Part shown: positions 8,912 to 34,000 of the stretch, piece by piece
Layout: every line of letters starts with the position of its first letter
How positions within the stretch are numbered: the first letter of the stretch is position 1
DNA from: Saccoglossus kowalevskii
Taxonomy: Eukaryota; Hemichordata; Enteropneusta; Harrimaniidae
Length of the DNA: 34,932 bases
Assembly: GCF_000003605.2 (NCBI RefSeq)
Contig: NW_003123584.1
Location: 1-34,932 of the forward strand
Reading direction: 5' to 3'
Notes under the pieces: generated by a model
Seen by the model: the letters and a program-made list of their open reading frames with translations, nothing else
Database searches by the model: none
What the model was told of the DNA's origin: nothing
Position numbers and translations under genes: made by a program

Positions 8912-9899
8912 GGTTTCACGTCTCACTATCACACACATCAATGTCATCTGTCTGATATAGACATCAGGTTTCTCGTCTCACTGTCACACACATCAATGCC
9001 ATCTGTCTGATATAGACATCAGGTTTCACGTCTCACTATCACACACATCAATGTCATCTGCCTGATATAGACATCAGGTTTCACGTCTCACTATCACACA
9101 CATCAATGTCATCTGCCTGATATAGACATCAGGTTTCACGTCTCACTATCACACACATCGATGTCAACTGCCTGATATAGACATCAGGTTTCACGTCTCA
9201 CTATCACACACATCAATGTCATCTGTCTGATATAGACATCAGGTTTCACGTCTCACTATCACACACATCAATGTCATCTGTCTGATATAGACATCAGGTT
9301 TCACGTCTCACTATCACACACATCAATGTCATCTGTCTGATATGGACATCAGGTTTCTCGTCTCACTATCACACACATCGATGTCAACTGCCTGATATAG
9401 ACATCAGGTTTCACGTCTCACTATCACACACATCAATGTCATCTGTCTGATATAGACATCAGGTTTCACGTCTCACAATCACACACACCAATGTCATCTG
9501 TCTGATATAGACATCGGGTTTCACGTCTCACTATCACACACACCAATGTCATCTGTCTGATATAGACATCAGGTTTCACGTCTTACTATCGCACACATCA
9601 ATGTCATCTATCTGATATAGACATCAGGTTTCACGTCTCACTATCACACACACCAATGTCATCTGTCTGATATAGACATCAGGTTTCACGTCTCACTATC
9701 ACACACATCAATGTCATCTGCCTGATATAGACATCGGGTTTCACGTCTCTATCACACACATCAATGTCATCTATCTGATATAGACATCAGGTTTCACGTC
9801 CGACTATCACACACAACAATGTCATCTGTCTGATATGGACATCAGGTTTCACGTCTCAGTGTCACACACATCAATGTCATCTGTCTGATATAGACATCA
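8912..9899 (+). repeat. 988-bp block, restarted at 9900 and copied at 25.2 kb
   Basis: The series from the unit before TTTCTCG/CTGTCA/AATGCC (8967) to the CTCAGTG unit (9845) restarts at 9900, where the next TTTCTCG/AATGCC unit starts at 9955, 988 bp later. It also matches 25237-26169. Rare markers shared with that distant copy are AATGCC (8996, 25321), CTCACAATC (9471, 25741), TCTTACTATC (9581, 25851), CCGACTATC (9800, 26070) and CTCAGTG (9856, 26126). The offset is 16325 bp at first, then 16270 bp after one unit missing in the right-hand copy. Confidence 0.88.
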
Positions 9900-11274
9900 G
9901 GTTTCACGTCTCACTATCACACACATCAATGTCATCTGTCTGATATAGACATCAGGTTTCTCGTCTCACTGTCACACACATCAATGCCATCTGTCTGATA
10001 TAGACATCAGGTTTCACGTCTCACTATCACACACATCAATGTCATCTGCCTGATATAGACATCAGGTTTCACGTCTCACTATCACACACATCAATGTCAT
10101 CTGCCTGATATAGACATCAGGTTTCACGTCTCACTATCACACACATCGATGTCAACTGCCTGATATAGACATCAGGTTTCACGTCTCACTATCACACACA
10201 TCAATGTCATCTGTCTGATATAGACATCAGGTTTCACGTCTCACTATTACACACATCAATGTCATCTGTCTGATATAGACATCAGGTTTCACGTCTCACT
10301 ATCACACACATCAATGTCATCTGTCTGATATAGACATCAGGTTTCACGTCTCACTATCACACACATCAATGTCATCTGTCTGATATAGACATCAGGTTTC
10401 ACGTCTCACTATCACACACATCAATGTCAACTGCCTGATATAGACATCAGGTTTCACGTCTCACTATCACACACATCAATGTCATCTGTCTGATATAGAC
10501 ATCAGGTTTCACGTCTCACTATCACACACACCAATGTCATCTGTCTGATATAGACATCAGGTTTCACGTCTCACTATCACACACATCAATGTCATCTGTC
10601 TGATATAGACATCAGGTTTCACGTCTCACTATCACACACATCAATGTCATCTGTCTGATATAGACATCAGGTTTCACGTCTCACTATCACACACACCAAT
10701 GTCATCTGTCTGATATAGACATCAGGTTTCACGTCTCACTATCACACACATCAATGTCATCTGCCTGATATAGACATCAGGTTTCACGTCTCACTATCAC
10801 ACACACCAATGTCATCTGTCTGATATAGACATCAGGTTTCACGTCTCACTATCACACACATCAATGTCATCTGTCTGATATAGACATCAGGTTTCACGTC
10901 TCACTATCACACACATCAATGTCATCTGTCTGATATAGACATCAGGTTTCACGTCTCACTATCACACACATCATTGTCATCTGTCTGATATAGACATCAG
11001 GTTTCACGTCTCACTATCACACACATCAATGTCATCTGTCTGATATAGACATCAGGTTTCTCGTCTCACTGTCACACACATCAATGTCATCTGTCTGATA
11101 TAGACATCAGGTTTCACGTCTCACTATCACACACATCAATTTCATCTGTCTGATATAGACATCAGGTTTCACGTCTCACTATCACACACATCAATGTCAT
11201 CTGCCTGATATAGACATCAGGTTTCACGTCTCACTATCACACACATCAATGTCATCTGCCTGATATAGACATCA

Positions 11275-23200: not shown

Positions 23201-24250
23201 CATCAGGTTTCACGTCTCACTATCACACACATCAATGTCATCTGTCTGATATAGACATCAGTTTTCACGTCTCACTATCACACACACCAATGTCATCTGT
23301 CTGATATAAACATCAGGTTTCTCGTCTCACTATCACACACATCAATGTCATCTGCCTGATATAGACATCAGGTTTCACGTCTCACTGTCACACTCACCAA
23401 TGTCATCTGTCTGATATAGACATCAGGTTTCACGTCTCACTATCACACACATCAATGTCATCTGTCTGATATAGACATCAGGTTTCACGTCTCACTATCA
23501 CACACATCAATGTCATCTGTCTGATATAGACATCAGGTTTCTCGTCTCACTATCACACACACCAATGTCATCTGTCTGATATAGACATCAGGTTTCACGT
23601 CTCACTATCACACACATCAATGTCATCTGCCTGATATAGACATCAGGTTTCACGTCTCACTATCACACACACCGATGTCATCTGCCTGATATGGACATCA
23701 GGTTTCACGTCTCACTATCACACACATCAATGTCATCTGTCTGATATAGACATCAGGTTTCACGTCTCACTATCACACACACCAATGTCATCTGTCTGAT
23801 ATAGACATCAGGTTTCACGTCTCACTATCACACACATCAATATCATCTGTCTGATATAGACATCAGGTTTCACGTCTCACTATCACACACACCAATGTCA
23901 TCTGTCTGATATAGACATCAGGTGTCACGTCTCACTATCACACACATAATTGTCATCTGTCTGATATAGACATCAGGTTTCTCGTCTCACTGTCACACAC
24001 ATCAATGTCATCTGTCTGATATAGACATCAGGTTTCACGTCTCACTATCACACACATCAATGTCATCTGCCTGATATAGACATCAGGTTTCACGTCTCAC
24101 TATCACACACATCAATGTCATCTGCCTGATATAGACATCAGGTTTCACGTCTCACTATCACACACATCGATGTCAACTGCCTGATATAGACATCAGGTTT
24201 CACGTCTCACTATCACACACATCAATGTCATCTGTCTGATATAGACATCA
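20240..24250 (+). repeat. Satellite interior with two mixed cassettes
   Basis: Starts with the recurring pair AATGACATC then TTTCTCG/CATACCAAT (20271, 20318) and a TATCGAC unit (20616). It passes through ordinary monomers, then a 53-bp unit at 21943 opens another cassette with two consecutive GCTTTCAC units (22151, 22206), AATGACATC (22310), CATACCAAT twice, and three TATCGAC units between 22537 and 22700. A run CACATAATTG near 23944 is a private cluster of changes. No gene or foreign insertion is visible. Confidence 0.83.
22051..22105 (+). repeat. Chimeric monomer inside a cassette
   Basis: Other cassettes have two separate units here, one with CTGTCA and TCAAT and the next with AACAAT and TATGGAC. 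This single unit has CTGTCA on its left and ACAATG with TATGGAC on its right, with CACACCACAATG at the join, plus a private CACATC that destroys its CpG. The simplest reading is loss of one unit length by exchange between adjacent monomers. Confidence 0.7.
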
Positions 24251-24908
24251 GGTTTCACGTCTCACTATCACACACATCAATGTCATCTGTCTGATATAGA
24301 CATCAGGTTTCACGTCTCAATATCACACACATCAATGTCATCTGTCTGATATGGACATCAGGTTTCACGTCTCACTATCACACACACCAATGTCATCTGT
24401 CTGATATAGACATCAGGTTTCACGTCTCACTATCACACACACCAATGTCATCTGTCTGATATAGACATCGGGTTTTACGTCTCACTATCACACACACCAA
24501 TGTCATCTGTCTGATATAGACATCAGGTTTCACGTCTCACTATCGCACACATCAATGTCATCTATCTGATATAGACATCAGGTTTCACGTCTCACTATCA
24601 CACACACCAATGTCATCTGTCTGATATAGACATCAGGTTTCACGTCTCACTATCACACACATCAATGTCATCTGCCTGATATAGACATCAGGTTTCACGT
24701 CTCTATCACACACATCAATGTCATCTATCTGATATAGACATCAGGTTTCACGTCTCACTATCACACACAACAATGTCATCTGTCTGATATGGACATCAGG
24801 TTTCACGTCTCACTGTCACACACATCAATGTCATCTGTCTGATATAGACATCAGGTTTCTCGTCTCACTATCACACACACCAATGTCATCTGTCTGATAT
24901 AGACATCA
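24251..24908 (+). repeat. Twelve-monomer block present three times
   Basis: This block matches 27158-27815 (offset 2907 bp) and 31275-31932 (a further 4117 bp). Markers are CTCAATATC (24317, 27224, 31341), CGGGTTTTACG (24470, 27377, 31494) and the 53-bp unit (24691, 27598, 31715). A private CACCTCTC occurs in the middle copy near 27275. The block ends where the divergent island begins at 24909; the corresponding position in the second copy, 27816, is a 53-bp unit and in the third a normal 55-bp unit. Confidence 0.87.
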
Positions 24909-25181
24909 GGTTTCACGTCTCTCTCTCTCACATCAATGTCTTCTATCTGATATATACATAAAGTGTGTCGTCTCTCTCTCTCACACACAAATGTGATCTG
25001 TCTGATATATACATAACGTGTGTCGTCTCTCTCTCACACACACAAATGTGTTCTGTCTGAGATATACATAACGTGTGTCGTCTCTCTATCACACACACAC
25101 ATGTCATCTGTCTGATATATACATAACGTGTGTCGTCTCTCTCTCACACACAACAATGTCATCTGTCTGATATGGACATCA
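24909..25181 (+). repeat. Island of strongly diverged monomers
   Basis: Five consecutive units differ sharply from the rest: 24909-24961 (53 bp), then 24962, 25017, 25072 and 25127, each 55 bp long. Their shared features are CGTGTGTCGTCTC in place of GGTTTCACGTCTC, CTCTCTCTC in place of CTCACTATC, CAAATGTG in two units, and TATATACATAA at the end. The 55-bp spacing is kept, so this is a diverged subfamily and not an insertion. The first unit starts like the normal family and the last ends like it (AACAATG then TATGGAC), so both borders fall inside monomers. The first unit has the length and CTATCTG of the 53-bp class, matching the unit at 27816 in the duplicate block. I found no other copy in the window. 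Confidence 0.92.
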
Positions 25182-26829
25182 GGTTTCACGTCTCAGTGTC
25201 ACACACATCAATGTCATCTGTCTGATATAGACATCAGGTTTCACGTCTCACTATCACACACATCAATGTCATCTGTCTGATATAGACATCAGGTTTCTCG
25301 TCTCACTGTCACACACATCAATGCCATCTGTCTGATATAGACATCAGGTTTCACGTCTCACTATCACACACATCAATGTCATCTGCCTGATATAGACATC
25401 AGGTTTCACGTCTCACTATCACACACATCAATGTCATCTGCCTGATATAGACATCAGGTTTCACGTCTCACTATCACACACATCGATGTCAACTGCCTGA
25501 TATAGACATCAGGTTTCACGTCTCACTATCACACACATCAATGTCATCTGTCTGATATAGACATCAGGTTTCACGTCTCACTATCACACACATCAATGTC
25601 ATCTGTCTGATATGGACATCAGGTTTCTCGTCTCACTATCACTCACATCGATGTCAACTGCCTGATATAGACATCAGGTTTCACGTCTCACTATCACACA
25701 CATCAATGTCATCTGTCTGATATAGACATCAGGTTTCACGTCTCACAATCACACACACCAATGTCATCTGTCTGATATAGACATCGGGTTTCACGTCTCA
25801 CTATCACACACACCAATGTCATCTGTCTGATATAGACATCAGGTTTCACGTCTTACTATCGCACACATCAATGTCATCTATCTGATATAGACATCAGGTT
25901 TCACGTCTCACTATCACACACACCAATGTCATCTGTCTGATATAGACATCAGGTTTCACGTCTCACTATCACACACATCAATGTCATCTGCCTGATATAG
26001 ACATCGGGTTTCACGTCTCTATCACACACATCAATGTCATCTATCTGATATAGACATCAGGTTTCACGTCCGACTATCACACACAACAATGTCATCTGTC
26101 TGATATGGACATCAGGTTTCACGTCTCAGTGTCACACACATCAATGTCATCTGTCTGATATAGACATCAGGTTTCACGTCTCACTATCACACACAACAAT
26201 GTCATCTGTCTGATATGGACATCAGGTTTCACGTCTCACTATCACACACATCAATGTCATCTGCCTGATATAGACATCAGCTTTCACGTCTCACTATCAC
26301 ACACATCAATGTCATCTGTCTGATATAGACATCAGGTTTCACGTCTCACTATCACACACAACAATGTCATCTGTCTGATATGGACATCAGGTTTCACGTC
26401 TCACTGTCACACACATCAATGTCATCTGTCTGATATAGACGTCAGGTTTCACGTCTCACTATCGCACACATCAATGACATCTGTCTGATATAGACATCAG
26501 GTTTCTCGTCTCACTATCACACATACCAATGTCATCTGTCTGATATAGACATCAGGTTTCACGTCTCACTATCACACACATCAATGTCATCTGTCTGATA
26601 TAGACATCAGGTTTCACGTCTCACTATCACACACACCAATGTCATCTGTCTGATATAGACATCAGGTTTCACGTCTCACTATCACACACATCAATGTCAT
26701 CTGCCTGATATAGACATCAGGTTTCACGTCTCACTGTCACACACACCAATGTCATCTGTCTGATATAGACATCAGGTTTCACGTCTCACTATCACACACA
26801 TCCATGTCATCTGTCTGATATCGACATCA
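25182..26829 (+). repeat. Block copied from the 8.9-9.9 kb type, then a cassette
   Basis: Normal monomers resume with a CTCAGTG unit. 25182-25537 also matches 9845 onward, and 25237-26169 matches 8912-9899. After 26169 a cassette follows with AACAAT/TATGGAC, GCTTTCAC (26279), AATGACATC (26474), CATACCAAT (26522) and TCCATG/TATCGAC (near 26820). Private changes include ACTCACATCG near 25641 and GACGTCAGG near 26439. No gene is visible. Confidence 0.83.
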
Positions 26830-29800
26830 GGTTTCACGTCTCACTATCACACACACCAATGTCATCTGTCTGATATAGACATCGGGTTTCACGTCTCACT
26901 ATCACACACACCAATGTCATCTGTCTAATATAGACATCAGGTTTCAAGTCTCACTATCGCACACATCAATGTCATCTATCTGATATAGACATCAGGTTTC
27001 ACGTCTCACTATCACACACACCAATGTCATCTGTCTGATATAGACATCAGGTTTCACGTCTCACTATCACACACATCAATGTCATCTGCCTGATATAGAC
27101 ATCAGGTCTCACGTCTCTATCACACACATCAATGTCATCTGTCTGATATAGACATCAGGTTTCACGTCTCACTATCACACACATCAATGTCATCTGTCTG
27201 ATATAGACATCAGGTTTCACGTCTCAATATCACACACATCAATGTCATCTGTCTGATATGGACATCAGGTTTCACCTCTCACTATCACACACACCAATGT
27301 CATCTGTCTGATATAGACATCAGGTTTCACGTCTCACTATCACACACACCAATGTCATCTGTCTGATATAGACATCGGGTTTTACGTCTCACTATCACAC
27401 ACACCAATGTCATCTGTCTGATATAGACATCAGGTTTCACGTCTCACTATCGCACACATCAATGTCATCTATCTGATATAGACATCAGGTTTCACGTCTC
27501 ACTATCACACACACCAATGTCATCTGTCTGATATAGACATCAGGTTTCACGTCTCACTATCACACACATCAATGTCATCTGCCTGATATAGACATCAGGT
27601 TTCACGTCTCTATCACACACATCAATGTCATCTATCTGATATAGACATCAGGTTTCACGTCTCACTATCACACACAACAATGTCATCTGTCTGATATGGA
27701 CATCAGGTTTCACGTCTCACTGTCACACACATCAATGTCATCTGTCTGATATAGACATCAGGTTTCTCGTCTCACTATCACACACACCAATGTCATCTGT
27801 CTGATATAGACATCAGGTTTCACGTCTCTATCACTCACATCAATGTCATCTATCTGATATAGTCATCAGGTTTCACGTCTCACTATCACACACAACAATG
27901 TCATCTGTCTGATATAGACATCAGGTTTCACGTCTCACTATCACACACACCAATGTCATCTGTCTGATATAGACATCAGGTTTCTCGTCTCACTATCACA
28001 CACATCAATGTCATCTGCCTGATATAGACATCAGGTTTCACGTCTCACTGTCACACACACCAATGTCATCTGTCTGATATAGACATCAGGTTTCACGTCT
28101 CACTATCACACACATCAATGTCATCTGTCTGATATAGACATCAGGTTTCACGTCTCACTATCACACACATCAATGTCATCTGTCTGATATAGACATCAGG
28201 TTTCTCGTCTCACTATCACACACACCAATGTCATCTGTTTGATATAGACATCAGGTTTCACGTCTCACTATCACACACATCAATGTCATCTGCCTGATAT
28301 AGACATCAGGTTTCACGTCTCACTATCACACACACCGATGTCATCTGTCTGATATAGATATCAGGTTTCACGTCTCACTATCACACACATCAATGTCATC
28401 TGTCTGATATAGACATCAGGTTTCACGTCTCACTATCACACACACCAATGTCATCTGTCTGATATAGACATCAGGTTTCACGTCTCACTATCGCACACAT
28501 CAATGTCATCTGTCTGATATAGACATCAGGTTTCACGTCTCACTATCACACACACCAATGTCATCTGTCTGATATAGACATCAGGTGTCACGTCTCACTA
28601 TCACACACATCAATGTCATCTGTCTGATATAGACATCAGGTTTCTCGTCTCACTGTCACACACATCAATGTCATCTGTCTGATATAGACATCAGGTTTCA
28701 CGTCTCACTATCACACACATCAATGTCATCTGCCTGATATAGACATCAGGTTTCACGTCTCACTATCACACACATCAATGTCATCTGCCTGATATAGACA
28801 CATCAGGTTTCACGTCTCACTATCGCACACATCAATGTCATCTATCTGATATAGACATCAGGTTTCACGTCTCACTATCACACACATCAATGTCATCTGC
28901 CTGATATAGACATCAGGTTTCACGTCTCTATCACTCACATCAATGTCATCTATCTGATATAGACATCAGGTTTCACGTCTCACTATCACACACAACAATG
29001 TCATCTGTCTGATATGGACATCAGGTTTCACGTCTCACTGTCACACACATCAATGTCATCTGTCTGATATAGACATCAGGTTTCACGTTTCACTATCACA
29101 CACAACAATGTCATCTGTCTGATATGGACATCAGGTTTCACGTCTCACTATCACACACATCAATGTCATCTGCCTGATATAGACATCAGCTTTCACGTCT
29201 CACTATCACACACATCAATGTCATCTGTCTGATATAGACATCAGGTTTCACGTCTCACTATCACACACAACAATGTCATCTGTCTGATATAGACATCAGG
29301 TTTCACGTCTCACTATCACACACACCAATGTCATCTGTCTGATATAGACATCAGGTTTCTCGTCTCACTATCACACACATCAATGTCATCTGCCTGATAT
29401 AGACATCAGGTTTCACGTCTCACTGTCACACACACCAATGTCATCTGTCTGATATAGACATCAGGTTTCACGTCTCACTATCACACACATCAATGTCATC
29501 TGTCTGATATAGACATCAGGTTTCACGTCTCACTATCACACACATCAATGTCATCTGTCTGATATAGACATCAGGTTTCTCGTCTCACTGTCACACACAT
29601 CAATGTCATCTGTCTGATATAGACATCAGGTTTCACGTCTCACTATCACACACATCAATGTCATCTGCCTGATATAGACATCAGGTTTCACGTCTCACTA
29701 TCACACACATCAATGTCATCTGCCTGATATAGACATCAGGTTTCACGTCTCACTATCACACACATCGATGTCAACTGCCTGATATAGACATCAGGTTTCA

Positions 29801-31001: not shown

Positions 31002-34000
31002 GGTTTCACGTCTCACTATCACACACACCAATGTCATCTGTCTGATATAGACATCAGGTTTCACGTCTCACTATCGCACACATCAATGTCATCTATCTGA
31101 TATAGACATCAGGTTTCACGTCTCACTATCACACACACCAATGTCATCTGTCTGATATAGACATCAGGTTTCACGTCTCACTATCACACACATCAATGTC
31201 ATCTGCCTGATATACACATCAGGTCTCACGTCTCTATCACACACATCAATGTCATCTGTCTGATATAGACATCAGGTTTCACGTCTCACTATCACACACA
31301 TCAATGTCATCTGTCTGATATAGACATCAGGTTTCACGTCTCAATATCACACACATCAATGTCATCTGTCTGATATGGACATCAGGTTTCACGTCTCACT
31401 ATCACACACACCAATGTCATCTGTCTGATATAGACATCAGGTTTCACGTCTCACTATCACACACACCAATGTCATCTGTCTGATATAGACATCGGGTTTT
31501 ACGTCTCACTATCACACACACCAATGTCATCTGTCTGATATAGACATCAGGTTTCACGTCTCACTATCGCACACATCAATGTCATCTATCTGATATAGAC
31601 ATCAGGTTTCACGTCTCACTATCACACACACCAATGTCATCTGTCTGATATAGACATCAGGTTTCACGTCTCACTATCACACACATCAATGTCATCTGCC
31701 TGATATAGACATCAGGTTTCACGTCTCTATCACACACATCAATGTCATCTATCTGATATAGACATCAGGTTTCACGTCTCACTATCACACACAACAATGT
31801 CATCTGTCTGATATGGACATCAGGTTTCACGTCTCATTGTCACACACATCAATGTCATCTGTCTGATATAGACATCAGGTTTCTCGTCTCACTATCACAC
31901 ACACCAATGTCATCTGTCTGATATAGACATCAGGTTTCACGTCTCACTATCACACACATCAATGTCATCTGTCTGATATAGACATCAGGTTTCACGTCTC
32001 ACTATCACACACATCAATGTCATCTGTCTGATATAGACATCAGGTTTCACGTCTCACTATCACACACACCAATGTCATCTGTCTGATATAGACATCAGGT
32101 TTCTCGTCTCACTATCACACACATCAATGTCATCTGCCTGATATAGACATCAGGTTTCACGTCTCACTGTCACACACACCAATGTCATCTGTCTGATATA
32201 GACATCAGGTTTCACGTCTCACTATCACACACATCAATGTCATCTGTCTGACATAGACATCAGGTTTCACGTCTCACTATCACACACATCAATGTCATCT
32301 GTCTGATATAGACATCAGGTTTCTCGTCTCACTATCACACACACCAATGCCATCTGTTTGATATAGACATCAGGTTTCACGTCTCACTATCACACACATC
32401 AATGTCATCTGCCTGATATAGACATCAGGTTTCACGTCTCACTATCACACACACCGATGTCAACTGCCTGATATAGATATCAGGTTTCACGTCTCACTAT
32501 CACAAACATCAATGTCATCTGCCTGATATAGACATCAGGTTTCACGTCTCACTATCACACACATCAATGTCATCTGCCTGATATAGACACATCAGGTTTC
32601 ACGTCTCACTATCGCACACATCAATGTCATCTATCTGATATAGACATCAGGTTTCACGTCTCACTATCACACACACCAATGTCATCTGTCTGATATAGAC
32701 ATCAGGTTTCACGTCTCACTATCACACACATCAATGTCATCTGCCTGATATAGACATCAGGTTTCACGTCTCACTATCACACACATCAATGTCATCTGTC
32801 TGATATAGACATCAGGTTTCACGTCTCTATCACTCACATCAATGTCATCTATCTGATATAGACATCAGGTTTCACGTCTCACTATCACACACAACAATGT
32901 CATCTGTCTGATATGGACATCAGGTTTCACGTCTCACTATCACACACAACAATGTCATCTGTCTGATATGGACATCAGGTTTCACGTCTCACTGTCACAC
33001 ACATCAATGTCATCTGTCTGATATAGACATCATGTTTCACGTCTCACTATCACACACAACAATGTCATCTGTCTGATATGGACATCAGGTTTCACGTCTC
33101 ACTATCACACACATCAATGTCATCTGCCTGATATAGACATCAGCTTTCACGTCTCACTATCACACACATCAATGTCATCTGTCTGATATAGACATCAGGT
33201 TTCACGTCTCACTATCACACACAACAATGTCATCTGTCTGATATAGACATCAGGTTTCACGTCTCACTATCACACACACCAATGTCATCTGTCTGATATA
33301 GACATCAGGTTTCTCGTCTCACTATCACACACATCAATGTCATCTGCCTGATATAGACATCAGGTTTCACGTCTCACTGTCACACACACCAATGTCATCT
33401 GTCTGATATAGACATCAGGTTTCACGTCTCACTATCACAAACATCAATGTCATCTGTCTGATATAGACATCAGGTTTCACGTCTCACTATCACACACATC
33501 AATGTCATCTGTCTGATATAGACATCAGGTTTCTCGTCTCACTGTCACACACATCAATGTCATCTGTCTGATATAGACATCAGGTTTCACGTCTCACTAT
33601 CACACACATCAATGTCATCTGCCTGATATAGACATCAGGTTTCACGTCTCACTATCACACACATCAATGTCATCTGCCTGATATAGACATCAGGTTTCAC
33701 GTCTCACTATCACACACATCGATGTCAACTGCCTGATATAGACATCAGGTTTCACGTCTCATTATTACACACATCAATGTCATCTGTCTGATATAGACAT
33801 CAGGTTTCACGTCTCACTATCACACACATCAATGTCATCTGTCTGATATAGACATCAGGTTTCACGTCTCACTATCACACACATCAATGTCATCTGTCTG
33901 ATATGGACATCAGGTTTCACGTCTCACTATCACACACATCGATGTCAACTGCCTGATATAGACATCAGGTTTCACGTCTCACTATCACACACATCAATGT

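Follow-up and report, generated by a model that had tools for sequence, protein, structure and literature searches.

Divergent units within a 55-bp tandem array carry a directional, register-keeping dinucleotide stutter of possibly technical origin

In tandem arrays of the alpha-satellite kind, divergent monomers occur within the array or at its edges. The five-unit island described here resembles such monomers in that its units are about 20% divergent and lie in phase with a homogenized array, but it differs from them in following one local pattern, in which bases are replaced by a copy of the base two positions 5' (i-2). The sole island-own substitution type outside that pattern is a G to C change at column 0 of the monomer. 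A second likeness is to nanopore sequencing of telomeres, in which tandem repeats are read as another repeat and, in the human cases, the period of six is kept (Tan et al. 2022, PMC9414165). That report blames similar pore current, includes 5-mer and 7-mer mis-calls as well, and locates the errors in reads (PMC9414165), whereas the i-2 pattern found here stands in assembled sequence. Short-range template-switch clusters (PMC7954356) likewise form dense clusters of change that possibly arise in one event; there, synthesis moves to a nearby template, whereas the island consists of single i-2 bases, with length unchanged.

The 55-bp array and its divergent island

The 55-bp tandem array fills the whole of the window (the entire stretch of DNA analyzed, 34,932 bases), with 635.6 copies and 94% matches. 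Wraparound alignment resolved 636 units, of which the last is partial and was excluded from the counts; 604 are 55 bp long and 21 are 53 bp long. Seven are 57 bp long (at 1814, 6710, 7865, 8855, 16553, 28749, and 32538), and an AC insertion at column 48 is common to the three of these that were aligned (1814, 28749, and 32538). The array has a mosaic structure built of duplicated blocks, with the best 25 diagonals listed spanning 5 to 26 units. Local unit order is conserved, and no fixed higher-order period stands out. GC skew stays within -0.335 to -0.389 in all 1-kb steps from 1 to 34000, a strong strand asymmetry. The length of the array, together with the lack of matches to short queries in phage, plasmid, viral, and prokaryote collections, suggests that it is a eukaryotic satellite. 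Distant blastn searches gave zero matches in the phage and plasmid collections (query 24200-25900) and in E. coli genomes (query 24890-25200), and a degenerate 28-base pattern fitting both the main and the island unit types was absent from the viral contigs and prokaryote genome contigs. Relatives were sought among phages, plasmids, viral contigs, and prokaryotes, and these results therefore carry little weight. A literature search with a 13-base piece of the monomer gave no match, and one for 55-bp satellites found nothing related in the parts of the papers that it covered.

The 630 full units outside the island differ from the consensus by a mean of 1.57 bases and at most 6, and neighboring array units differ from each other by a mean of 2.83 bases. 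Monomers elsewhere in the array thus differ by a few bases, as the original prediction had it. The island that the prediction placed among them, at 24909-25181, is present in the sequence: it consists of units 453 to 457, which carry 9, 12, 13, 9, and 8 differences from the consensus, respectively, the 9 of unit 453 including its 2-base deletion. The resulting divergence, 15 to 24% (8 to 13 positions per unit), falls short of the "about a third" that had been claimed. The units and the divergent tract running through them are as follows.

24909..24961, + strand: left border unit 453, 53 bp, with a native deletion, 21t, and 38a amid island changes
24962..25016, + strand: island unit 454, 12 differences
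25017..25071, + strand: island unit 455, 13 differences
25072..25126, + strand: island unit 456, aligned with one gap and one inserted base
25127..25181, + strand: right border unit 457, with island changes in columns 0-16, then native 26a and 47g
24923..25143, + strand: divergent tract from first to last island-specific substitution, with 46 non-native substitutions, 43 of which equal the base two positions 5'

The tract is 221 bp long, about four repeat lengths, and the 55-bp phase is kept through the island, as predicted. Units 454 to 457 are all 55 bp long, and the 2-bp deletion of unit 453 is native, being common to 19 other units. When unit 456 is read gap-free, its gap and insertion become three in-place substitutions that lengthen a CACACA tract. 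There is then no length change in the tract, in two-base steps or otherwise, which speaks against ordinary microsatellite slippage.

The prediction that the island has a consensus of its own is borne out. A 23-base motif joining ATATACATAA to GTGTGTCGTCTC has four matches with at most 3 mismatches, within the window only in the island, and 100 shuffles gave 0 matches. At core columns 3, 5, 6, 13, 48, and 53, the same changes appear in all four units that could bear them. The C to G change at column 5 is absent outside the island, and the other core changes, except 6t, occur in at most 4 of the 630 units, such that the island units share diagnostic variants that are rare or absent in the main array, as expected of a divergent subfamily. 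Defining as island-own those substitution types that occur elsewhere in fewer than 5 units, we found that 7 of 13 own types do occur elsewhere, each in at most 4 of 630 units, with no clear enrichment to suggest that island variants have leaked into the main array. Two further changes, 6t and 26c, are shared with minor unit variants outside the island, where they occur in 75 and 182 of the 630 units, respectively.

A recent, directional, register-keeping stutter

The i-2 copying pattern was missed by the original prediction, and it weakens the reading of the island as an old or foreign subfamily. In counting the 46 substitutions, we excluded as native 21t and 38a in unit 453, 26a and 47g in unit 457, and the deletion; 6t and 26c, being common in the main array, were kept among the 46 and left out of the 13 own types. 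Counted by type, 15 of 16 equal the base two positions 5', and among the island-own changes the match holds for 12 of 13 types and 35 of 38 cells, the exception being the column 0 change (three units). In comparison, 15 of 60 rare types elsewhere in the array match i-2; insertion-carrying units other than 456 were dropped from these main-array counts, leaving 82 types versus the 83 of the transversion count given below. The pattern was spotted before it was tested; 12 offsets were compared. Twelve matches were not attained at any of these offsets in 20,000 simulations with 13 random changes each, nor in 20,000 in which the changes were drawn from the rare types of the array itself, where the maximum was 10. 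The best five-unit window not overlapping the island holds 3 i-2 changes. A stricter control, in which the eight core positions were filled with random bases, equaled or exceeded the period-2 score in 1.1% of cases (P of 0.011).

The pattern has a direction. By hand count, 8 types match the upstream base only and 0 the downstream base only (two-sided sign test, 0.008). It also lengthens dinucleotide tracts, with 16 of at least 6 bases in the island versus 2 (both CA) in two consensus units. The copying is a tendency, not a fixed rule: 43 of the 134 i-2 opportunities in the tract are taken, at a rate of 32/78 where the two preceding bases already alternated and 11/56 elsewhere. Transversions account for 12 of the 13 island-own types, compared with 46 of the 83 found elsewhere (P of 0.005, or 0.03 against singletons). 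At the variable columns (16, 19, 27, 28, 33, 34, and 44), the state is always either the i-2 copy or the main consensus base. Among units 453 to 456, each of the four combinations of these states occurs at adjacent columns 33 and 34, and likewise at column pairs 19/33 and 19/34, which fits independent per-site events better than descent. Purine-pyrimidine alternation is hardly altered (from 34 to 36 of 55 steps). Secondary structure is equally unremarkable: an island dimer folds no better than shuffles (z of 0.19 and -1.02 on the two strands), and neither does a main-array dimer (z of 1.13 and -0.43).

The border units can be compared with undiverged counterparts elsewhere in the window, and the flanks of these counterparts with the flanks of the island.

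24251..24908, + strand: left flank, near-identical to 27158-27815 and to 31275-31932, with 1 difference in 658 bp each
27816..27868, + strand: unit 506, undiverged counterpart of the left border unit, from sequence comparison
9790..9844, + strand: unit 178, undiverged counterpart of the right border unit, from sequence comparison
25182..26114, + strand: right flank of 17 units, a rotated copy of units 168-184 (9242-10174), with 1 difference in 17 units

Unit 506 is the 53-bp unit at 27816 that had been proposed as the homologue of the left border, rightly: the 2-bp deletion, 21t, and 38a are common to units 453 and 506. The two differ at 6 positions, all of which are i-2 matches, one of them being a variant of unit 506 itself. 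Similarly, units 457 and 178 differ at 8 positions, 7 of which are i-2 matches. No counterpart of the three middle units, 454 to 456, was identified within the window. Both borders had been described as chimeric, and this proved true of the right unit, a clean chimera; the left unit is a mosaic, in which island changes (columns 16, 19, 34, 48, and 53) are interleaved with native markers. The flanks adjoining the counterparts differ from those of the island by just 1 base in 658 bp (left) and 0 in 385 bp (right), and the change in the border units is therefore recent; these units are not older than the duplications that surround them. Overall, a recent, directional, register-keeping stutter has passed over units that keep their native markers.

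Technical and biological origins of the stutter

In the explanation that we tentatively prefer, ordinary array units would have been overlaid by a recent, length-preserving dinucleotide stutter running 5' to 3' on the + strand, in which short dinucleotide seeds present in the monomer (GT, CT, CA, and AT) would be extended across the bases 3' of them. This stutter may be technical, a mis-decoded or poorly covered read stretch having perhaps entered the assembly consensus in a manner comparable to nanopore tandem-repeat mis-calls. A base-calling artefact had figured in the original prediction only as something that would refute it; it is now the leading reading, favored over a biological origin, with a probability that we put a little under even. 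We favor a technical origin because so many substitutions without net length change lie within 221 bp of 35 kb, and length-preserving, context-linked substitutions confined to one stretch are what the tract contains when unit 456 is read gap-free. To our knowledge, there is no precedent for a mutation cluster with as many as 43 changes of this kind within 221 bp and no net change of length. In nanopore data, telomere repeats are mis-called as other repeats in a strand-specific manner, and the errors are absent from HiFi reads (PMC9414165); in the human genome, HiFi coverage gaps were filled from a nanopore-based assembly (PMC9186530). A literature search, passages of PMC9414165 included, found no description of an i-2 form of nanopore mis-call, and passages of PMC13419748 and PMC12263367 had no bearing on the matter. 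Against an artefact stands the shared core, the same in each of the four units that could carry it, as it would be in a true subfamily, and so do the incomplete use of i-2 opportunities, the column 0 change that breaks the pattern, the stricter core control, and the weaker excess obtained when a purer ancestor is assumed (see below). The tract also coincides with a rearrangement junction (see below), something that biology would explain as readily as misassembly. If the stutter is an artefact, the i-2 pattern offers an easy way to test for false subfamilies, with no reads needed, in newly completed satellite arrays, in which patches of this kind might be mistaken for relics or conversion tracts.

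That same shared core also speaks for a genuine, dinucleotide-richer subfamily residing elsewhere, in another array or at an array edge, from which conversion or unequal exchange would have brought in about four units, in phase; a transfer of this sort was among the readings offered by the original prediction. The preserved 55-bp phase and the clean right chimera agree with such a transfer, as does the spacing of units 454 to 456, which by hand count differ mutually by about 4 to 5 bases versus the mean of 2.83 for neighbors. We nevertheless consider this origin unlikely, though it deserves to be taken seriously. The window holds no further copies of the subfamily, and unit 453 keeps its native 38a and 21t on the side of its deletion that faces the island. 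The states of the variable columns are odd whichever state is derived: if it is the copies, because i-2 copies make up 7 of the 8 own variable types (P of 0.0004 to 0.003), and if it is the main state, because each column would need to have arrived at the main base (about (1/3)^7), unless exchange with the main array mixed the states. The columns with four combinations and the excess of transversions count against it too, and the variation among the island units does not have the form of ordinary mutation shared in a tree-like manner. The i-2 excess weakens if a purer ancestral monomer is assumed: a simulation then gave a P of 0.007 for 13 of 14 sites, where 14 of 15 were observed, and the P for the own variable types alone was 0.15. 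Purer dinucleotide tracts could equally be the ancestral state of an old relic left in place that escaped homogenization, and the occurrence of 6t and 26c in minor variants of the main array agrees with that. The original prediction had offered such a relic as one possibility; the undiverged counterparts and the i-2 pattern disfavor it, since the border changes are younger than the flank duplications, unless the counterparts were converted, and the neighboring units shown in the alignment are not intermediate. We regard it as very improbable.

Alternatively, the tract could be a real mutation cluster, left where the 17-unit block was inserted or recombined, by repair or break-induced synthesis in which the polymerase slipped back two bases and realigned time after time (two-nucleotide dislocation), giving a phase-preserving stutter. 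It lies at the left end of the rotated copy of units 168-184, and its single + strand direction suits one synthesis event. Moreover, outside the island, units with the deletion and 38a have a unit of the 26a.47g type directly after them in 16 of 17 cases (for example, at 661, 7042, and 28916), whereas at the island these two unit types (453 and 457) are parted by the stuttered units 454 to 456. Template-switch mutation clusters have been described in great apes (PMC7954356). Coincidence with a junction is weak evidence, however. Among 585 five-unit gaps tested, both flanks are near-identically copied in 49 (the other 536 lacking a near-identical copy of both), and 47 of these 49 join different blocks, so that a block junction alone was rejected as an explanation. 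We judge a mutation cluster to be quite unlikely. Its most far-reaching form is a satellite subfamily born in one step, in which a polymerase stuttering two bases back dozens of times, with register kept, at the junction of the 17-unit insertion would have produced about four monomers, all in phase, with purer tracts and a divergence of up to 24%. Improbable as we hold this to be, it would, if real, be a route by which divergent monomers arise in one go where a rearrangement joins two blocks, and one of which we were not aware.

Rotated blocks in the array

Units 458-474 form the rotated copy of units 168-184, and unit 475 matches units 458 and 179 exactly. Among the 27 rotated blocks of 8 to 44 units listed with no more than 2 differences, many of them overlapping, this block stands on top. 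Of 40 random 17-unit starts drawn, 2 near the island were dropped; among the remaining 38, one reached 1 difference, and it may overlap the same block pair, while the others had 8 to 25. A rotated block of 17 units can arise when a 17-mer is duplicated in tandem, when a circle is cut out and then reinserted, or when the assembly takes a wrong path in its graph. That such a block ends at the island is more suggestive than a plain junction, though it was noticed afterwards. The next entry in the list is a 14-unit block, 574-587 (from 31550), which matches units 3-16 (from about 166) with 2 differences, and rotated copies may thus recur in the array.
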